Shown one piece after another: positions 16,525 through 25,688 of a stretch of 38,377 nucleotides of DNA (the first letter of the stretch is position 1; the number at the start of each line of letters is the position of its first letter). The position numbers and the translations under genes are program-made. Origin of the DNA: Bodo saltans (Eukaryota > Euglenozoa > Kinetoplastea > Eubodonida > Bodonidae); contig CYKH01000935.1 in assembly GCA_001460835.1 (NCBI GenBank), forward strand, positions 9,161-47,537, read 5' to 3'. The notes under the pieces were generated by a model. That model was not told the DNA's origin, ran no database searches, and saw nothing but the letters and a program-made list of their open reading frames with translations.

Positions 16525-16851
16525 AGAGACCCTCTCCATAGGCTGTTGGCTTTCTCGCTCTCGTGCCTCTCTGCTGTGCAGTGGTCGTATGCTTTTGTGT
16601 ACATTATTGTGATGCAAGCTATCAGCGATCAACCCCAACAGATATCTGCGACGCATTGTGATTTCAGACAACCGTCTTCACTTTTTTGAAACTCACTCTT
16701 TGTTGAAACAAACAAACAAACTAAGTCACGCACTGTAGGAACCATTAGGTAAGAGACGAATATTCATCTTCTGTCGGCTGCGCATCTTAGTTGCTCGGGT
16801 GGTCGATCTGCAGGAGCGACCAAACGTTGCCGTTGTTCTGCACACTCCAAT
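16525..16851. other. Intergenic region
   Basis: About 330 bp. It contains a short T run (16681-16687), a CAAA repeat (about 16706-16721) and AG candidates upstream of ATG 16852. Nothing else was recognised. Confidence 0.4.
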
Positions 16852-19800
16852 ATGCAACTTGCAATCTACCTTTTTTGTCTTTTCTTCTTCACCCTCGCTT
16901 TGCCCACCGCAGTTGTCGCCGACGAGGTTGCCTGCGACGTAGACAACCACACTCTTGTTTCGCACAGCACTTACACAATTACTAACTGTGCAAGGCGCGA
17001 CGGCTCTCCGTTTCTTCTTCTCGTTCCAGGGAATGATTCATCCACTTTATTGAACGTCTCGGTGGTTGTGACGTTTGGCACCGTGTTGCCAATGTTGCTT
17101 CTGGATAGCATGACACTGGTAGAAAATGTAGCAGTGCTCGTGTCTGGTGCTCGCGTTTCGTCAGTCTCTGAACCTCCGTTGGTTCAGCTAAGTGCTTCAT
17201 CGATGTCCATGGTCTTTGTAAATGGCCATTCTTTCAGCAGTGTGCGAGGCGTTGCCTTGGCTGTTGTCAACGTGACCGTGACGATGGACACAGAATCGCG
17301 TTACACCAATTTCGGCTCGATTGGCGCATGTTTGCTGCTTGTGGTCAACATGGAAGACCACGGCATTGTCGACGGCATTCGTGTGCTTGTCGAGGAGTCT
17401 ACTGTGCTGCAACGATTTAATAGCACTACGTACAGGAGCTTGGGGATGATGGATATCTCAGTAGGGGAAGAGTGCACGATAAGGAACGTCAATGTGACGA
17501 TAGCTTCAAGTGCGATTCAAGTATTTGCGAACTTCTCATCACAGGCATATTTTTGGTTTCCTAGCACTGCTCTTGTTCTCATTCAGACAACTACAGGCGG
17601 TCCATCTGGTTCCATCGCGACAGATGTTTACTACGCAACCATCGGCAAGGTGTTGCTACAAATTGAAATGAACACCGTGGGCACCGCTCTTGGTGCCATG
17701 AGTGGTACTGCTGCCTATGCGCTCGCAAGTGTGGTGGTGCTTGGTGTCCACAACGTTTTGGCAGCAGGCGTCAATATCACTCTTAGTCCCGGAGCGCGTG
17801 TGGTGGCTGTGTGTGAATGCTCTCGCCTGTGCGGCAATCAGAACATCGATGCACCTGTTGGCATCCTGTCAACCTATGTGGTGTCATTCAGATCGTTTTT
17901 GGATCGATCGTCGAACGAAAATGTGACGATTGCTCTTTCGGGAGTGACTTTAACAGCAAAAGCACCATCAGGAGCTTATCTCATCAGTGTGTATCTGACA
18001 ACCACACATCGATGTATCATTTCCCTTGCGGACTTAACTTTCGATAGCAGTCTCAGAGGGTTTTACATTGGGACGGAGGCAAGATCTACAAGCGTAGTCT
18101 ACTTTGCAAATGTGGCTATGTCTGAAGTAACGATTGCACTGAGCAATGTGTCGCTTGCAAGCACTGTGGAAAGCGGGGGCTGTTCCTCCACGATATCTGC
18201 GGTGGTGTCAACAGCAGGAAATGTTTCGAATTCGTCATTCGAAATCACAGAGGCGCACCTTTCAACCTTTGTTACTGTTGGTGTCGTGACTCCACTATCA
18301 TTGTTCGGAGTATCAGCAACGCTGTCCGCGGCGTCAACAAACCTCCTGAGCCTCCTCCCGCCCAGCTTGCTCTTGCCGAGCACGGTGGAAGCGATCACCA
18401 TTCGTATTGTGAACTCCGCAGTTGTGGCTGGTCATACGTCCGGAGTTCCTTTATTGACCATATTTACTGTTGTGATATCGTCTATCTCTGCCGTAAGCTT
18501 GATCACCTCAGTGCGGAGCAGCAACATCCTCATTCAGCGTGTTGTTGTGCAACGTACTCGTCCTCTTGCTGCTGGCGCTGAAACGTGGTTTCCAAGGACC
18601 TATACAGGAGGTGCCATTAACGTAACGTCCATCGTGACTGCGCTTGACATCTCGGGTCTCATGTACGTGTTTCTTCCCGGGTCTTCTTCTTTTGTGTCTA
18701 GCATGATTGGCCCAGCGACGGTCACTACTCAGACGAATGTCTCCGTGAGAATAAGTGAGTGCAATGTGAGCTACGCGACGAATCTTGCTCCTGGCCTTGC
18801 TGACGTACCAGCATTTTTCTTCGCTCCTAGTTCGTTGACTGCATCCAACTACACAATTCACAACTCGTCGTTGTTGCGGCAACCAGATTCTACGACAAGT
18901 AGAAACGTCGTTGTATCGCCTTTAGTCAGTGGTGCCTTCATGGCAGTTCTTTCCAATACCACAGTTGATTCGACAACGATCAGCTTTAGTAACTCCGTTT
19001 CTCTTTCTGCAGTACTCCTCCTTGTCAAATTCTCTTCTTTGCGGATTGCCTGGAAACGTACTTACGTCGACGCTGCTCCTCCAGCGATGCGTTTCATCTT
19101 CACGAGAGTGACGACAATGACCGCCGTCGCTCAGGCGCTCCTTTTCTCAGTGACTTATGGCGGGAGCATTCACTTTGTAGCCAACTCAACCTCCGCAGCA
19201 ACATCATTATCATCATCATTATCAGCACCTCTTATTTCCGTGACGCAGTCGACGTTTGAGAACTATCGTTTTGTGTTTGCACCGAACCATACTGTGCTCG
19301 AAGGGAATTTGAATAGCAGCAACGACAATCATCAACCAGCGATGGTGCTCCTTGAATTGGGCTGTACAAACCTGTGGAATCGTGAGCCAATGTCTTTGGC
19401 GGTAGCAGCAGAGCCTCGTTCCCCATTGCTGGCATACACTGCATTTCCTCAAATCGGTTCTATACATTTCCCTGATTGTCAGCCAGCGAGACTTCCGCTG
19501 CGTGACTTTTCTGTTAGTGCGGGAGCAGCAGGATCCGTTGCAGCCGTTGTGTACGTATCACTGCTTTCTAGAGGTTCATCTGCAGTGACCCGTGGCGCAG
19601 CGACAAGCCTGCAACGGTCTATGCAAGTGCTTCGTTTGTGGCAGCGATGCCGCCGTTCTGCTGATGATGACAGCCCCTTCTCGGAGGACGGCGCCAACTC
19701 AAGTCCTCCGCTGTTCAGTGACTTGAGCGACAATGTCCTTGGAATCTCCTTCACGTTTGTCGATGATGAGATCTTTGATTTTGCCGCTGGGGCTGCATTC

Positions 19801-20934
19801 GGCAATGCCATTTTTGTCGTTGCACTCGGTGCGCTGTTTCATTTGCTTCTCGTTGCTAAGGCACGCGTTTGCCAGTCTCTGGAAAATAGCCCAATTGTGT
19901 CATTTATAATGGACATGACTCCAGCTGCACGTCTTCCAGGTTCTATAGCAAATGACTTTGGCAAGCTGTTACAGCCGTCAACGGCCGCGTGCACTGCTCT
20001 ATTGTTTGGCCGATCAATTTCGCATCGTGTGTGTGGCGCAGTCCTAGCGTGTGTCTGGCTATATTACCCTGTCGCATCTGCTCACGCTGTGCTTTGGCGT
20101 GGTCGGCGTGACCGACAATTCCTATTGGTAGGAGCAAGAGTGCGATCGCTACGGCAAACTAATGACAGCGGATCTGTCACCACCAAGCAACATCTGACCA
20201 AACTCGTCACCTTTACCGCGAGTCCGACGCAAGAATGGAAGCCAAGGCCAGGGTGTAGCCACCGTGGCACAAAAGAGCGACACTATTCGCAATATTTACT
20301 GAGCAACCTCTCACCTGTTTTTGAGGCGTTTGTGGAGAGGAGGGAATGGTATTTTATGGTGGAGTGGACCATGGGCATCCTAAGTGGTATTGTTCTCGGT
20401 GCCGCTTCGGTGATTGCAGCCACAGGAGGTGACGAAGCGTGCAGCGCTGCACAGTGGGGGACGTACAGTGCCATAGCATTTTCGGTGCTGAACCTGGTCT
20501 TCTGTTTATTACTTCGACCATTTAGCGTGCGACTTGAGATCTGGATGACGATCGTCATTAGTGCACTCGAACTCCTTGCAGAAGTTCTTGTCGCTGCTGG
20601 GGATGCTGATGCGTCAGATAGTGTAGTGACAACATCGGCAACGCTCGAGCTGGTCGTTATTGCGGTGGTAACTCTATTCCTCGCATATTATCATAACACT
20701 CCTTCGTTGGAGAACGCTCCGGTGGCAGATGGTCCTAAAGTAACCATCAAAGTGAAGGTCCCTGGTGCAATCGAGAGGCTCCGAGCTCGTGCGACGCAGG
20801 TCACTACTGTTGCCGCTGAAGTCACACCACCATCCACCGCGACGACAAAGACAACCTCGTTGGAACAACTAAGATCGCTGATTGAATTAATTTGCTCACA
20901 ACAAGCAGCAGAGTCCAACACACCTAGCGTGTAG
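16852..20934 (+). CDS. Large multi-spanning surface protein, intact array copy 1
   Basis: Protein of 1360 aa with a clean signal peptide (about 1-23), a long ectodomain and a C-terminal membrane part. The ectodomain is Ser/Thr/Val-rich with many N-x-S/T sites and repeated short beta-strand-like phrases (NVTV, VSVxV), suggesting a beta-helix. A Cys motif CEC...CG (C321/C323) is shared with the other copies, as is a GGC(S/A)S phrase. The C-terminal module has about six or seven helices (about 890-910, 976-1002, 1046-1080, 1165-1190, 1205-1222, 1230-1250, 1259-1280). Conserved phrases are LQRSxxVLxLWQxCR, FAAGAAFGNA, WRGRR and REWYFxVEW. The general layout recalls trypanosome DGF-1 surface proteins, but I cannot confirm homology. 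This is the only undamaged copy in the window; copies two and three are broken. Confidence 0.85.
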   Translation: MQLAIYLFCLFFFTLALPTAVVADEVACDVDNHTLVSHSTYTITNCARRDGSPFLLLVPGNDSSTLLNVSVVVTFGTVLPMLLLDSMTLVENVAVLVSGARVSSVSEPPLVQLSASSMSMVFVNGHSFSSVRGVALAVVNVTVTMDTESRYTNFGSIGACLLLVVNMEDHGIVDGIRVLVEESTVLQRFNSTTYRSLGMMDISVGEECTIRNVNVTIASSAIQVFANFSSQAYFWFPSTALVLIQTTTGGPSGSIATDVYYATIGKVLLQIEMNTVGTALGAMSGTAAYALASVVVLGVHNVLAAGVNITLSPGARVVAVCECSRLCGNQNIDAPVGILSTYVVSFRSFLDRSSNENVTIALSGVTLTAKAPSGAYLISVYLTTTHRCIISLADLTFDSSLRGFYIGTEARSTSVVYFANVAMSEVTIALSNVSLASTVESGGCSSTISAVVSTAGNVSNSSFEITEAHLSTFVTVGVVTPLSLFGVSATLSAASTNLLSLLPPSLLLPSTVEAITIRIVNSAVVAGHTSGVPLLTIFTVVISSISAVSLITSVRSSNILIQRVVVQRTRPLAAGAETWFPRTYTGGAINVTSIVTALDISGLMYVFLPGSSSFVSSMIGPATVTTQTNVSVRISECNVSYATNLAPGLADVPAFFFAPSSLTASNYTIHNSSLLRQPDSTTSRNVVVSPLVSGAFMAVLSNTTVDSTTISFSNSVSLSAVLLLVKFSSLRIAWKRTYVDAAPPAMRFIFTRVTTMTAVAQALLFSVTYGGSIHFVANSTSAATSLSSSLSAPLISVTQSTFENYRFVFAPNHTVLEGNLNSSNDNHQPAMVLLELGCTNLWNREPMSLAVAAEPRSPLLAYTAFPQIGSIHFPDCQPARLPLRDFSVSAGAAGSVAAVVYVSLLSRGSSAVTRGAATSLQRSMQVLRLWQRCRRSADDDSPFSEDGANSSPPLFSDLSDNVLGISFTFVDDEIFDFAAGAAFGNAIFVVALGALFHLLLVAKARVCQSLENSPIVSFIMDMTPAARLPGSIANDFGKLLQPSTAACTALLFGRSISHRVCGAVLACVWLYYPVASAHAVLWRGRRDRQFLLVGARVRSLRQTNDSGSVTTKQHLTKLVTFTASPTQEWKPRPGCSHRGTKERHYSQYLLSNLSPVFEAFVERREWYFMVEWTMGILSGIVLGAASVIAATGGDEACSAAQWGTYSAIAFSVLNLVFCLLLRPFSVRLEIWMTIVISALELLAEVLVAAGDADASDSVVTTSATLELVVIAVVTLFLAYYHNTPSLENAPVADGPKVTIKVKVPGAIERLRARATQVTTVAAEVTPPSTATTKTTSLEQLRSLIELICSQQAAESNTPSV

Positions 20935-21534: not shown

Positions 21535-21536
21535 TA

Positions 21537-21552
21537 AAGGCGGGGTCATAAT
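21537..21552 (+). repeat. Left terminal inverted repeat
   Basis: AAGGCGGGGTCATAAT, identical to the reverse complement of 25671-25686. Preceded by TA. Confidence 0.9.
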
Positions 21553-21595
21553 GATATACCCCCTCAATAGCGTACCCCCCAAAAATTTTGGTGGA

Positions 21596-21691
21596 GGGGG
21601 TACACAATTGCGGGGGTACACAATTGCGGGGGTACGGTATTACGGGGGTACGCTATTACGGGGGTACGCTATTATGGGGGTACGCAATTAT
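21596..21691 (+). repeat. Six subterminal 16-bp GGGGGTAC units
   Basis: GGGGGTAC occurs at 21596, 21612, 21628, 21644, 21660 and 21676, an exact 16-bp period with unit GGGGGTACRCWATTRY (one unit has GG after the TAC). Two opposed CCCCC units lie between this array and the left terminal repeat (about 21559-21580). The right end has the same plan with fewer units: GGGGGTAC on the plus strand at 25627, 25643 and 25660, and one opposed unit at about 25605-25613. The likely role is a transposase-binding array. Confidence 0.85.
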
Positions 21692-21937
21692 AAGATACCC
21701 GGTCAGCTGATGGAAGATTGTTCCTTTTTGTTTTGTGATTTCCTTTTTTTTGAAAAACGGTTGGCGAGAAAAGGAAAGCGGAATATAATTTTTAGGATTC
21801 AAAGTTGTCAATTCAATCAAAGTAACGCAGGTTGGTTCATTAGCGTTCTTATGGAGTTATGTCATCTCTTAACCTATGATTGCAGTAGATGAAAGAAGAG
21901 AGGGAATAAAGAGAGGGAAGGAAGAGAGGGAAAACCG

Positions 21938-23245
21938 TCACTCAGCGTCCCATGCAGCACGCCAGGGACCACGTCCCTCGCGGCAGTACATGTCCGGACA
22001 GCGCCAGAAGTCGTGACCCCTCTCTTTGGATGTCATTTGACGTAGGTACTTACCGCAGTCAGGGCATTGCCGAAGCGATACCTTTGGCAGTGGTCGCAGT
22101 GGGTCTTCGCGCAGCAACGCAAATTGAAACGTGGGATCCTCATGCTTTTGTGCGAGTTGTTTACGCGACAAGATGCCGTGCTGGTTGGAGATGATACGGA
22201 TCACCGCATTCAACGCAAACAGTCCGCAGTCGTTTGAACCTGGCGCTTGCAGTTTGAAGCATGTTTCAGTGCCAACTACCCTGTTGGAACCTGCGGAGAG
22301 CCACGCAACAAATTCATAGAAAACCTCACGGCGGTATGACTCGTAGTGATCTTTGCAGCTATCCCAAGTATACGCTTTCTTGACAAACGGATCGTAGCCA
22401 AATGCAACGAAATGGGAATGATGAAAGACGACGCATGCCATACGCATTTTTATAAGCTGAGGCGGATAGGGACGGGAATGTTTGCGCAGAACTTCGAACC
22501 CGAAAGAATCAATGATCAGGTGGTCAGGAAAACAGTGGCGTATCACATCTAGCAGTGCCGTGATGGTGCGGGTGGTGATCATGGCGTTCGCAGGATAATC
22601 CCACAGAGGCTCGTTCTTGGGGACAAACGCTACCAAATCGCCGTCTGGGAACAGGATCCGCTCGGTCTCCACGTCGATGTAATTCCGTTCAGCTTTGCGT
22701 TCAGGGCTCTTGCGTTTACTTTTGACTTCTGGTGGGAGCGATCGCTGCTGCTGCGGCGTGGTTTCGTCGACGTTGAATTCTTTAAGCGCGGTTCGAATCT
22801 GCTCGTTGGACAGAAGCACAACATCGTTTGCTACTCGCTCGGTGCGACGCATTGCCAGGAGCTGATCGAGTTTGCTCGCCGGTCGTTGAGGTACGGCAGG
22901 TGCGGCTTTCGCTAATCGTGTTCCGAGCGTTCGGCGAGGAGCGGCTGTCTCTTCTGGTCTCGGGCGCTTAACGGATGGGCGTGTTCCAATGACTTCGGTA
23001 TCCGCAACAGCAGACGCAGCGGTGATCAGTTGTTCTTCCGAAGGTGCATAGATCACTTTGCTTGGTGTCGCACTTTGCTTCTGACGAAGTACCCATTCTT
23101 GGTTCGCGTCTCCCGGCTGAAAAACGTACGATGGCATATGAGGCAGTTTTATCGTTTCAGCCGAGGGATTGAGGTATCCGAGTGAGTCAAAGATCGCGCT
23201 TGAACTCCACGTCGATGAGTTCCCACGCTTTGATCGCGACTTCAC
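21938..23245 (-). CDS. Ulp1-type (C48) cysteine protease with C-terminal zinc ribbon, transposon-borne
   Basis: Protein of 435 aa. The catalytic core fits the Ulp1/SENP fold: His278 in HSHFVAFG, Asp295 in TWDS, Gln333 in KLQAPGSNDCG, and nucleophile Cys340 in the DCGLFALN motif. Together these are the full His-Asp-Gln-Cys set, so it is predicted active, probably cleaving SUMO-like or other Gly-Gly-type bonds. The N-terminal 190 residues are basic and disordered. After the protease there is a C2C2 zinc ribbon (C394-x2-C397...C416-x4-C421) with a TSKERGHDFWRCP stretch that resembles GRF-type zinc fingers. The frame starts at 23245, inside the end of the transposase gene (59-bp overlap). A later ATG at 23140 avoids the overlap. 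It may be translated from a shared transcript or made by frameshifting. Confidence 0.85.
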   Translation of the reverse strand: MKSRSKRGNSSTWSSSAIFDSLGYLNPSAETIKLPHMPSYVFQPGDANQEWVLRQKQSATPSKVIYAPSEEQLITAASAVADTEVIGTRPSVKRPRPEETAAPRRTLGTRLAKAAPAVPQRPASKLDQLLAMRRTERVANDVVLLSNEQIRTALKEFNVDETTPQQQRSLPPEVKSKRKSPERKAERNYIDVETERILFPDGDLVAFVPKNEPLWDYPANAMITTRTITALLDVIRHCFPDHLIIDSFGFEVLRKHSRPYPPQLIKMRMACVVFHHSHFVAFGYDPFVKKAYTWDSCKDHYESYRREVFYEFVAWLSAGSNRVVGTETCFKLQAPGSNDCGLFALNAVIRIISNQHGILSRKQLAQKHEDPTFQFALLREDPLRPLPKVSLRQCPDCGKYLRQMTSKERGHDFWRCPDMYCREGRGPWRAAWDAE

Positions 23246-24439
23246 CGAGGATTTGGCGCTTGTCTGTAGCAGAAAGTTTCCGGTAATGAGCCGCAGTGTT
23301 CACTTCGATCATGCGCATAATCAAGCCGTGGTGCACTCGACGGTAAAGGCCGAAGTAGTAAACGTCGAGGGCTTGCACCAAGGCGGTGCAGTTCGCCGGG
23401 ATCACCTGTATCCACCATCCTTTGTCCAAGACGGCCGTGATGACTGTTTGCGTGATGTGGCACGTGGCTGAGTCGAAGACCAGAAGCTTGCGCTTCCTTT
23501 CGTGGTGTCGTTCGATGTGTGGGATAACGTCTCTCACAAACACCTTCTCCGTCATGTTACCCTTTGGCGCAAAACGTACGGAAGTGCTCGTTACTCTTGC
23601 GTCGTCGAAGTTGTCGCTGCCTTTGAAAAACACGAGTGGTGGAATCTTGGTAGTCGCGAGGAAAAAAAGGCCTGTCGCAATTTTCTTGTTGTCGAGTAAG
23701 GGACACGAGGTTGCNNNNNNNNNNNNNNNNNNNNNNNNNNNNNNNNNNNNNNNNNNNNNNNNNNNNNNNNNNNNNNNNNNNNNNNNNNNNNNNNNNNNNN
23801 NNNNNNNNNNNNNNNNNNNNNNNNNNNNNNNNNNNNNNNNNNNNNNNNNNNNNNNNNNNNNNNNNNNNNNNNNNNNNNNNNNNNNNNNNNNNNNNNNNNN
23901 NNNNNNNNNNNNNNNNNNNNNNNNNNNNNNNNNNNNNNNNNNNNNNNNNNNNNNNNNNNNNNNNNNNNNNNNNNNNNNNNNNNNNNNNNNNNNNNNNNNN
24001 NNNNNNNNNNNNNNCAAAGATGACGTGTCAGCGGAGTACCGGTGTGATTGAAATCGCGAACTTCTTCAGCGACCTTGTTTTCTTTCTCCGAGACTGAGGA
24101 TTTTCGACCTGCACCAGGTGACCGCATGTACCCCTGCTCGAGAACCTTCGCAAGTCTTTGACGATCTCTCACGTACTTCCGGAGCTGACCCTTCTGGATC
24201 GAGATTCCTGAAATCATGCAAAAGTCGTTGCATAGCGACTGGTAGCCTTTTCGGACGGGATGGGTCTCCCTTGGACGCGCGCACTCGTGGAGCCATAACA
24301 GCACAGCACGTAACTTCGCAGCGATCGTAAGCGTCCGGTCGTTGAGGACTCCGCGGTCGAGCAGAGTCTCAAGGTACGTCCGCAGAGCGAAATCAGAATC
24401 GTCAGCGACGAAATCTGATTCGTCGTCCGGTTGTGACAT
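23187..24439 (-). CDS. Pogo-like DDE transposase, interrupted by an assembly gap
   Basis: Two stretches of one gene lie either side of 300 Ns. The N-terminal part starts at ATG 24439 (the frame runs on to 24484, but that extension is an internal copy of the terminal repeat). It has a helix-rich region and an AGRKSSVSEKENKVAE segment, followed by a G-T-P motif, like the CENPB/pogo helix-turn-helix region. The C-terminal part has the DDE_1 hallmarks: KLLVFDSATCH (second catalytic Asp) and ALVQALDVYYFG (third Asp, as in the LLQPLDV motif of pogo/Tigger). The first Asp falls in the gap. The two parts are in different frames across the gap as assembled, so either the gap length is wrong or there is a frameshift. 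Intactness cannot be judged. Confidence 0.82.
23715..24014. other. Assembly gap (300 N)
   Basis: Exactly 300 undetermined bases. The round number and the frame change across it suggest an estimated or placeholder length. Confidence 0.98.
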
Positions 24440-24471
24440 CCCTAATGCGTCCTCTCGCGATAATATACGAA

Positions 24472-24488
24472 AAGGCGGGGTCATAATT
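24472..24488 (+). repeat. Internal copy of the transposon terminal motif
   Basis: AAGGCGGGGTCATAAT recurs here in the left-end orientation, preceded by GAA rather than TA, immediately upstream of the transposase start. It could be an operator-like transposase-binding site or the end of a nested or fused smaller element (24472-25686). Confidence 0.85.
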
Positions 24489-24514
24489 TTGCGTAAGGGA
24501 CATGGTAAGCTAAA

Positions 24515-24630
24515 TCACCACCTAAGTGGGAGTAACGAGGAAAAAAAGTCACCACCGAACACCCTTCTTGCTCAGTGGTGGCTTCAGGGAAGAACGAGTC
24601 ACCACCGAAGTGGGAGTAACGAGAAAAAAA
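24515..24630. repeat. Direct repeat pair in transposon non-coding DNA
   Basis: The phrase TCACCACC(T/G)AAGTGGG followed by AGTAACGAG and an A run occurs at 24515-24547 and 24599-24630. A TCACCACCGAA fragment also lies at 24549-24559. Confidence 0.8.
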
Positions 24631-24650
24631 ATTCGATAAAAAAAAGGAGC

Positions 24651-24749
24651 GGCTGCATTCACGACTCCAACAAAGACAAGTCTTTGTTGGAGTCGTGAAT
24701 ACAGCCGAAGACAAAGACAAGTCTTTGTTGGAGTCGTGAACACAGCCGA
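24651..24749. repeat. Near-perfect palindrome plus tandem copy
   Basis: Perfect 21-bp arms (24657-24677 and 24680-24700) are separated by only two bases. With one mismatch the arms extend to 27 bp (24651-24677 and 24680-24706). The right half is then repeated 41 bp downstream (about 24712-24749). It would form a strong hairpin between the CCCH gene and the transposase gene and could act as a terminator or processing signal. Confidence 0.85.
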
Positions 24750-24881
24750 GGAATATGACGAAGTTCATTTTTGACTTGCCTTAAAAAGAACAAGTAGCAG
24801 GAGGCAATGATCACAGAATGAGGTACAGTGCTAAGAGTATCTACGGCCTGTTAAGTTGTTTCTTTGTTTTTGTTAACGGGG

Positions 24882-25514
24882 TTAATTAATTACGAACTTT
24901 GGTTCTGCGAGTTTGGCCAGGTTCCACAGGTCAGACATGTTGTCGAGGTCTCCCTCCAACAACATGTCCAACACCTTGCCAGAGAGGAGCGACCTCTTCA
25001 GGTCGTTCCGCTGGCCCTGGAGGTCGGAAACCTCCTCGAGGTTTGCGCGTTCGCGCTTCCGACCCTCCGCGAGGCGCGCGAACTTCTTCGCGGCCACGTC
25101 GGCGGCCTCGGCCCGCGACATGCAAGCGTTCAGCTTGATGTCCTTGCGGGGCCAATAGAAGACGGTGAGAACACCGTCCTCCATGACCGCTTCGCAAGCG
25201 TGCGTCTTCTGGCAGTTGCGTCTGCCGCAGACGCCAAGCCTTGCGAAGTCCCAACATAGGGACTTCGGGTGGCCAGCCCAGCGGCACGCATCCCCGCCGC
25301 ACTTGTCGGCGCGGGCGCAGGGGTGCACGGGACCAACCCACGCCGTCCCCTTCTTCTCCCGTACGTAGGAGATCAGGTACGGGGGGCAGGCAGGCAGCAG
25401 CCCTTGCTCTTGGGTTGCGCCTTGCTCTTGGGTTGCGCCTTGCTCTTCGGTTGCGCCTTGCTCTTGGAGTGCGCGGTGCTCATCGGTTGGCTGGAGCGCT
25501 TGTTGGCTCGACAT
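24882..25514 (-). CDS. Small protein with two CCCH-type zinc fingers, transposon-borne
   Basis: Protein of 210 aa from ATG 25514. The N-terminus carries tandem EQGAT(Q/E) repeats (about 18-38). Two Cys-Cys-Cys-His clusters follow: C66-x5-C72-x4-C77-x4-H82 and C87-x8-C96-x4-C101-x3-H105. The second is a good match to the CCCH class that usually binds RNA. The C-terminal half is charged and helical (Lys/Arg/Glu-rich). Codons are strongly GC-rich at third positions, unlike the transposase, the Ulp1 gene and the host genes nearby, which suggests a different origin. The gene lies between the right terminal repeat and the palindrome. A role as nucleic-acid-binding accessory protein for the element is inferred only from location and fingers. 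Confidence 0.75.
   Translation of the reverse strand: MSSQQALQPTDEHRALQEQGATEEQGATQEQGATQEQGLLPACPPYLISYVREKKGTAWVGPVHPCARADKCGGDACRWAGHPKSLCWDFARLGVCGRRNCQKTHACEAVMEDGVLTVFYWPRKDIKLNACMSRAEAADVAAKKFARLAEGRKRERANLEEVSDLQGQRNDLKRSLLSGKVLDMLLEGDLDNMSDLWNLAKLAEPKFVIN
25403..25475 (-). repeat. 18-bp tandem repeat inside the CCCH gene
   Basis: About four copies of an 18-bp unit encode the EQGATQ/E repeats. Copies are nearly identical, so the expansion is recent. Confidence 0.8.
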
Positions 25515-25670
25515 TTTGAAAAGCAAAAACCTTTCGACTCAAAAAAAAAGTGAACGAAATTTTTTTGGAGGTCAGGTTCAGGATTTCAAATTTTCACGGA
25601 ATAGCGTACCCCCTATCCCCTTGCCTGGGGGTACGCAATTGTGGGGGTACGGCTAATATGGGGGTACGGA

Positions 25671-25686
25671 ATTATGACCCCGCCTT
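25671..25686 (-). repeat. Right terminal inverted repeat
   Basis: ATTATGACCCCGCCTT on the plus strand, the reverse complement of the left end. Followed by TA. Confidence 0.9.
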
Positions 25687-25688
25687 TA

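Follow-up and report, generated by a model that had tools for sequence, protein, structure and literature searches.

Proteases of the Ulp1 type (Peptidase family C48) have been described on mobile elements of several kinds, namely Ginger1, Mutator-like elements, Cryptons, and the NeSL/Utopia elements (PMC2836005; PMC3212892; PMC4640811). A further candidate lies in a 38,377-nucleotide stretch of the Bodo saltans genome (assembly GCA_001460835.1, contig CYKH01000935.1, positions 9,161 to 47,537 of the forward strand), referred to below as the window. The element spans positions 21537-25686 of the window and contains three co-directional open reading frames (ORFs), all on the minus strand. With moderate confidence, we read it as a cut-and-paste DNA transposon of the pogo superfamily (Fot-like), resident in a kinetoplastid, whose transposase would be made together with, or frame-joined to, a C-terminal C48/Ulp1-like protease ending in a zinc ribbon.

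Among the closest described elements are the pogo elements of the Fot and Fot-like groups. TA target sites were reported for 50 Fot-like elements, and most of that family have terminal inverted repeats (TIRs) of 40-60 bp (Gao et al. 2020, PMC7386202). The B. saltans element resembles them in its TIRs of about 50 nt, its TA site, a length within the 1.2-5.2 kb range, and a probable DDE_1-type transposase with DD35D spacing; it differs in that the DNA-binding Pfam motifs listed for them (PMC7386202) are undetected here, and in having a C48-like domain and a gene for a CCCH zinc-finger protein. The main text of that paper contains no mention of "protease" and none of "kinetoplastid" (0 each). In several Ginger1 families, the Ulp1 protease is a C-terminal domain of the transposase itself (PMC2836005, Table 1), but the Ginger1 transposase is Gypsy-integrase-like and the families listed there are from animals, whereas that of the element described here is probably of the DDE_1/pogo type. 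Mutator-like elements with an Ulp1 domain, cited in the same paper, are likewise DNA transposons, but with a transposase of another superfamily. CryptonF and CryptonS of oomycetes encode a C48 peptidase related to Ulp1, in an additional protein in the case of CryptonS; unlike the present element, they use a tyrosine recombinase and have terminal direct repeats in place of TIRs (PMC3212892). In MarCry-1_FO, a Crypton is combined with a DDE transposase of the Mariner type that has TA sites, and the account of it in that paper does not mention a peptidase (PMC3212892). NeSL and Utopia-1_TSP carry an Ulp1-like cysteine protease within their main protein, but these are non-long-terminal-repeat elements with a reverse transcriptase, and the protease is N-terminal (PMC4640811). 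No pogo-type element with an Ulp1 domain was found in the literature on Ulp1/C48 proteases and transposons as covered in these three papers (PMC2836005; PMC3212892; PMC4640811), and a literature search for a CCCH zinc finger together with a transposase and TIRs found no report.

DNA transposons have seldom been described from kinetoplastids. The DNA transposon Merlin, with an IS1595-type transposase, has been reported from B. saltans and Perkinsela and was described as the first kinetoplastid DNA transposon (PMC8101967), and a mobilome survey reported no DNA transposons in 57 trypanosomatid genomes (PMC12278014).

The ends of the element are well defined (Table 1). The preliminary description, made from the DNA letters alone, had proposed a TIR element between TA flanks, and this proposal was borne out: the ends and a TA on both sides were recovered, as in the TIRs and TA target-site duplication of the Fot-like pogo elements. 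The arms extend over 51 nt and are 76% complementary. With up to 3 mismatches allowed, the window contained 3 matches to the 16-mer end, where 0.22 would be expected, and none of 100 shuffles had as many; besides the left and right ends, the third match was internal, a site absent from the preliminary description. The genome searched comprised 29.3 Mb in 934 contigs, with the window on contig C421; the search scores only the best candidates and skips simple repeats, so copy counts are lower bounds. At least eight loci carried one of two end types (the window, C858, C558, C101, C428, C378, C291, and C233). Where both ends were recognised (three loci), the flanks were TA and TA in the window and in C558, and TG and TA in C101; a TA also adjoined the end seen in C428, C858, C378, C291, and C233. 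An Rfam scan of the window and of L031 (contig C232) at gathering thresholds gave no match.

Table 1. Features of the candidate transposon and its immediate flanks, by window position
Feature	Position	Strand	Remarks
Left target-site TA	21535..21536	.	TA directly outside the left end
Left TIR	21537..21551	+	15-bp core AAGGCGGGGTCATAA of a 51-nt imperfect TIR
Left subterminal array	21596..21690	+	16-bp GGGGGTAC-rich repeats (repeat family D1)
ORF with putative C48/Ulp1-like protease	21938..23299	-	First ATG at 23137, 399 aa from there
Zinc-ribbon-like cysteines, protease C-terminus	21983..22066	-	Cysteines kept in the C858 relative
Catalytic-type motifs	22223..22423	-	HHSHFVAF 22400-22423, AYTWDS 22358-22375, LQAPGSNDCG 22223-22252
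Transposase C-terminal motif IFDSLGYLNPS	23141..23200	-	Falls in the frame of the protease rather than that of the transposase; in C412 it continues the transposase frame
Probable DDE_1/pogo-type transposase	23187..24439	-	ATG at 24439, stop 23187-23189; second and third D separated by 35 residues
Run of 300 N inside the transposase gene	23715..24014	.	Falls where the first catalytic D would be expected
Internal third TIR core	24472..24486	+	Oriented like the left end; 32 bases upstream of the transposase ATG
Spacer	24487..24881	.	Direct repeats of CACCACCGAAGTGGGAG type and hairpins (24650-24751)
CCCH-type zinc-finger protein, 210 aa	24882..25514	-	Relatives at C144, C807, C513
Right subterminal repeats	25627..25673	.	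GGGGGTAC-rich (repeat family D1)
Right TIR	25672..25686	-	Core AAGGCGGGGTCATAA
Right target-site TA	25687..25688	.	TA directly outside the right end

The transposase is probably of the DDE_1 class and pogo, Fot-like, type. The 175 residues that follow the N run matched Pfam DDE_1 with an E value of 0.0013, and the second and third acidic residues have the 35-residue spacing of the DD35D signature, the first being expected within the run. A transposase profile matched C644, which encodes a DDE_1 protein over the Pfam cut-off, with a score of 33.3, and none of 60 shuffles reached this (maximum 19.1). The 300-N run itself, either a gap or sequence withheld, whose stated length may differ from the true one, had gone unmentioned in the preliminary description. 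Transposase-related sequence was found at no fewer than four loci: the window, C144, C412, and, in diverged form, C558, where the remnant lies about 4 kb from the short element of that contig. In viral contigs, 14 stretches matched a pattern for transposase relatives and none was confirmed. Three more DDE_1 transposase genes, or parts of such genes, exceed the Pfam cut-off in the same genome: L041 (C194), L042 (C644), and L043 (C520), the latter two alike and the one on C194 different. DNA transposons seem more varied in this genome than the kinetoplastid literature, as far as covered here, implies.

The protease candidate retains a full set of catalytic-type residues. The H, D, Q, and C are present and invariant between the window and its relative in C858, and their catalytic role is read from the motif. 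A search of the genome with PF02902 (E up to 1) returned only C694 and C80, both over the Pfam C48 cut-off, and it is through C80 that homology to a family member was found: a profile built from the window and C858 proteases scored 44.3 against it, reached by 0 of 200 shuffles, and a sensitive tblastn search among 18 local loci aligned 134 aa with an E value of 3e-5. The relation to C48/Ulp1 proteases is indirect, through C80. The zinc ribbon of the C858 relative matched Zn_ribbon_Top1 (E 0.0015, 18.8 bits, with a curated cut-off of 32), and that of the window protease matched only Zn_ribbon_recom, at E 4.7. In viral contigs, one stretch matched a pattern for protease relatives and none was confirmed; a search for relatives in phages gave no result. 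The C48-like gene of C80 (L037:5430-6760) lies between stretches containing TCCTAGGA on both sides, as judged by eye, and is possibly another protease-carrying element of a different family.

The preliminary description had treated the protease as cargo. It is probably instead a C-terminal part of the transposase, as in Ginger1, because the C-terminal motif of the transposase itself sits in the protease frame and no T-rich tract lies upstream of the protease, so that a fusion or frameshift product is likelier than a cargo gene. In the window, the earlier part of the transposase lies in the transposase frame, and there is no stop between the IFDSLGYLNPS motif and the protease. The comparison comes from C412, a decayed copy of the C858 type, in which the transposase C-terminus was recognised on the minus strand (score 73, shuffle maximum 50, reached by 0 of 500) and runs in one frame into an IFSSVGYINPS motif, ASIFSSVGYINPS (score 57, shuffle maximum 45, reached by 0 of 500). 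The N-terminal side of the protease domain follows in the same direction, 482 bases past the motif in C412 and 475 in the window. The frame change between transposase and protease would be either a programmed frameshift or a frame-changing mutation in the window copy. T-rich tracts are usual for trans-splicing acceptors; runs of at least 7 T within 160 nt upstream were present before the CCCH and transposase ATGs and absent before the protease ATG, while 3.45% of 2000 random minus-strand windows have such a run. The alternative is that the protease is translated alone, from the ATG at 23137, as a second gene, and that the frame overlap reflects a mutation in the window copy or chance. It has in its favour that the transposase frame ends at 23187, ahead of that ATG, and that a stop occurs in C412, 12 codons after the transposase motif; yet the open protease frame reaches 54 codons upstream of the ATG and takes in the transposase C-terminal motif, and the missing T run would leave such a gene without the tract seen before the other two. 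We regard a separate protease gene as somewhat unlikely. Two further observations concern C412: a protease fragment is tandemly duplicated there with a 260-bp step (L052:1424-1850), near a WD-repeat-like frame, and a transposase match on the plus strand at 2472-2597 (E 0.03) was rejected, as the stretch reads like a WD-repeat gene.

Several results weigh against a pogo-type transposase joined to a C48/Ulp1-like protease. The claim of a DDE_1-type transposase drew support from its spacing and from its match to C644, but the DDE_1 match, at 18.8 bits, is below the curated cut-off of 22, the middle of the protein and its first D are hidden by the N run, and the match to C194, also a DDE_1 protein over the cut-off, was within the range of shuffles (6 of 60 reach it). 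In the 141-aa N-terminal part, no DNA-binding family was found with Pfam at E up to 10, the only match being DUF4954 at E 0.29, and neither an HTH_psq nor an HTH_Tnp_Tc5 motif was detected by HMMER, the filters of which drop weak matches. The earlier assignment of an Ulp1/C48 protease with all catalytic residues likewise held for the residues, but the C-terminal part of the window protease had no Pfam C48 match at E up to 10. Against SENP1 alone the protease profile scored 18.0, with 14 of 200 shuffles as good, and against C694 it scored a low 20.0; comparison with solved structures, both with the single sequence and as a two-sequence profile, gave no protease-like match; and the "DCG" around the protease cysteine is "NCA" in C858. 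As for the joint, the C412 stop counts here as well, and the zinc-ribbon pieces in C412 are duplicated and displaced to the opposite flank of the transposase piece; this copy is therefore rearranged and leaves the fusion unproven. Finally, no copy found besides that in the window has all three genes, the other gene-bearing loci being fragments with one or two.

That last point bears on a further explanation, in which the protease and CCCH genes are host genes that were captured once and ride along as neutral passengers. The expectation that all three genes always occur together, raised in the preliminary description, failed on this count, and copies free of the two extra genes do exist: in the sequence examined, six of the eight end-bearing loci gave no match to the protease or the CCCH protein, namely a 131-bp element with TA on both sides (C558), a 689-bp element (C101), an end alone of 35-37 bp (C428), a stretch of about 190 bp that is 96% identical to C858 (C378), and short end-bearing loci in C291 and C233. 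Such copies had been proposed as the sign of one-off insertions, but none of the six was seen to hold a transposase inside either, and a search for remains of the three genes in the 689-bp C101 element found nothing convincing. Moreover, the protease keeps its position next to the left TIR in the diverged C858 element, adjoins the transposase C-terminus in C412, and the CCCH gene carries the mark of purifying selection (below). The left end of C858, TAAAGGGGGGGTCAAAT, is related to but different from the window TIR, and its protease is 45% identical to that of the window over a 241-aa stretch, with the ribbon cysteines also kept; identities at the three codon positions are 0.54, 0.64, and 0.37, and 69 of 107 shared residues use another codon. 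Some 8.9 kb of N follow in that copy and hide any other genes. Judged from the sequences, the protease and CCCH genes are not one-off insertions, because they are linked pairwise to other parts of the element in C858 (protease and TIR), C412 (transposase and protease), and C144 (transposase and CCCH), and we consider neutral capture highly improbable. In C428, the left-end fragment (L020:2750-2804) lies between 10-bp direct repeats, GTGATTACTA, at 2750 and 2795, as if a bare end had inserted.

The third gene was earlier called a two-finger CCCH protein. One good finger stands, C-x8-C-x4-C-x3-H at residues 87-105, which fits the zf-CCCH pattern of C-x7-9-C-x4-6-C-x3-H, but the second is atypical (C-x5-C-x4-C-x4-H, residues 66-82), and the protein matched no Pfam family at E up to 10. 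It can be compared with that of C144, a locus that is colinear with the window in having the 5' end of the transposase, a decayed internal TIR, and the CCCH gene, with a spacer of about 65 bp that is shorter than that of the window. An alignment of 70 codons between the CCCH genes of the window and C144 shows 6, 3, and 22 differences in the first, second, and third codon positions (P 2e-5), with nonsynonymous (dN) and synonymous (dS) divergences of 0.080 and 0.566. From this low dN relative to dS and the excess at third positions, it follows that the CCCH gene was kept under purifying selection for some time after the copies parted, though the C144 copy is now broken. The spacer ahead of the transposase gene in the window also contains long, near-perfect hairpins, one with 28-nt arms (96%) and one with 38-nt arms (89%).

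Together, the internal and right TIRs would enclose the CCCH gene, which could reflect an old merger; alternatively, the internal site might have a regulatory role. As a merger, it would combine a transposase-protease element with a smaller CCCH unit (24472-25686) of the same TIR family; the original right end would have been lost, and the internal TIR would be the old left end of the CCCH unit. The direction of the internal TIR suits pairing with the right TIR around the CCCH gene, the decayed internal site in C144 is preceded by TA, and CCCH pieces with no transposase match occur at C807 and C513 (L023 and L024). However, C144 has the transposase 5' end, internal TIR, and CCCH gene joined in the same way but in other surroundings (the comparison took in some 110-135 bp of the window beyond either end of the element and found no match there), which makes the joint old, and no CCCH unit bounded by two TIRs was seen among the loci examined. 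We give the merger tentative credence as a real possibility. As a regulatory site, the internal TIR would be bound by the transposase and tune expression of the transposase gene, the three genes forming one original element. Its position just ahead of the transposase ATG and the decayed form at the same place in C144 are compatible with a putative operator; kinetoplastid genes are mostly without promoters of their own, however, and such a role is less natural there. We find the operator doubtful.

The host can be placed among the kinetoplastids because the end of a spliced leader precedes a frame that appears to encode a ribosomal protein. The 19 bases that close the kinetoplastid spliced leader occurred twice in the genome and 0 times in a reversed control, and at the start of contig C232 (C232:1) this end lies 8 bases ahead of the ATG of the ribosomal-protein-like frame. 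That stretch at the contig start (L031:1-60) may itself be a trans-spliced mRNA copied back into the genome, or else the assembly may contain cDNA at this point. Near the element, the window also encodes a 1393-aa protein (16753-20934), surface-type by impression, whose only Pfam match was RTC at E 0.11. The right flank of the element matched residues 41-157 of this protein on the minus strand with an E value of 4e-14 (residues 227-262 reached only E 2.6), and the left flank matched residues 326-395, also on the minus strand, at E 1e-4. This arrangement fits an insertion of the element into a decayed relative of the surface-type protein gene, which it would have split. In trypanosomes, a highly SUMOylated focus accompanies the active surface-antigen gene (PMC4256477; PMC6893287), and in view of that link the location of the element among surface-protein genes is suggestive, no more.

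Taken together, these features allow a working model of how the element may function. Because the CCCH and transposase genes each follow a T-rich, splice-acceptor-like tract, both might be expressed from host polycistronic transcription by trans-splicing. The transposase half would bind the TIRs and the GGGGGTAC repeats and move the element to TA sites, and the protease half, held at the same complex, would free the transposase, or host chromatin and repair proteins, of SUMO or a SUMO-like tag; both the protease activity and its direction at SUMO are presumed. Kinetoplastids control genes mostly at the mRNA level, and the CCCH protein could bind the mRNA of the element and set its level. A more specific version, which we think rather unlikely, has two forms of transposase produced through a +1 frame change, one short and one with an added Ulp1-type protease and its zinc ribbon, which would remove SUMO at the transposition complex, with an element-encoded CCCH mRNA-binding protein providing control at the RNA level in a polycistronic genome.

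If the favoured reading of a pogo-type transposase with a C-terminal C48/Ulp1-like protease is true, the element would add one more independent case of Ulp1, now on a DDE_1/pogo-type transposase and again C-terminal, strengthening the idea that de-SUMOylation or a related cut aids mobile elements and making that idea testable. It would also place another superfamily of DNA transposons in kinetoplastids beside Merlin, the only one reported in the literature as covered here (PMC8101967; PMC12278014). An element-borne CCCH protein, in hosts that regulate their genes mainly after transcription, would make self-control of an element at the RNA level testable as well.

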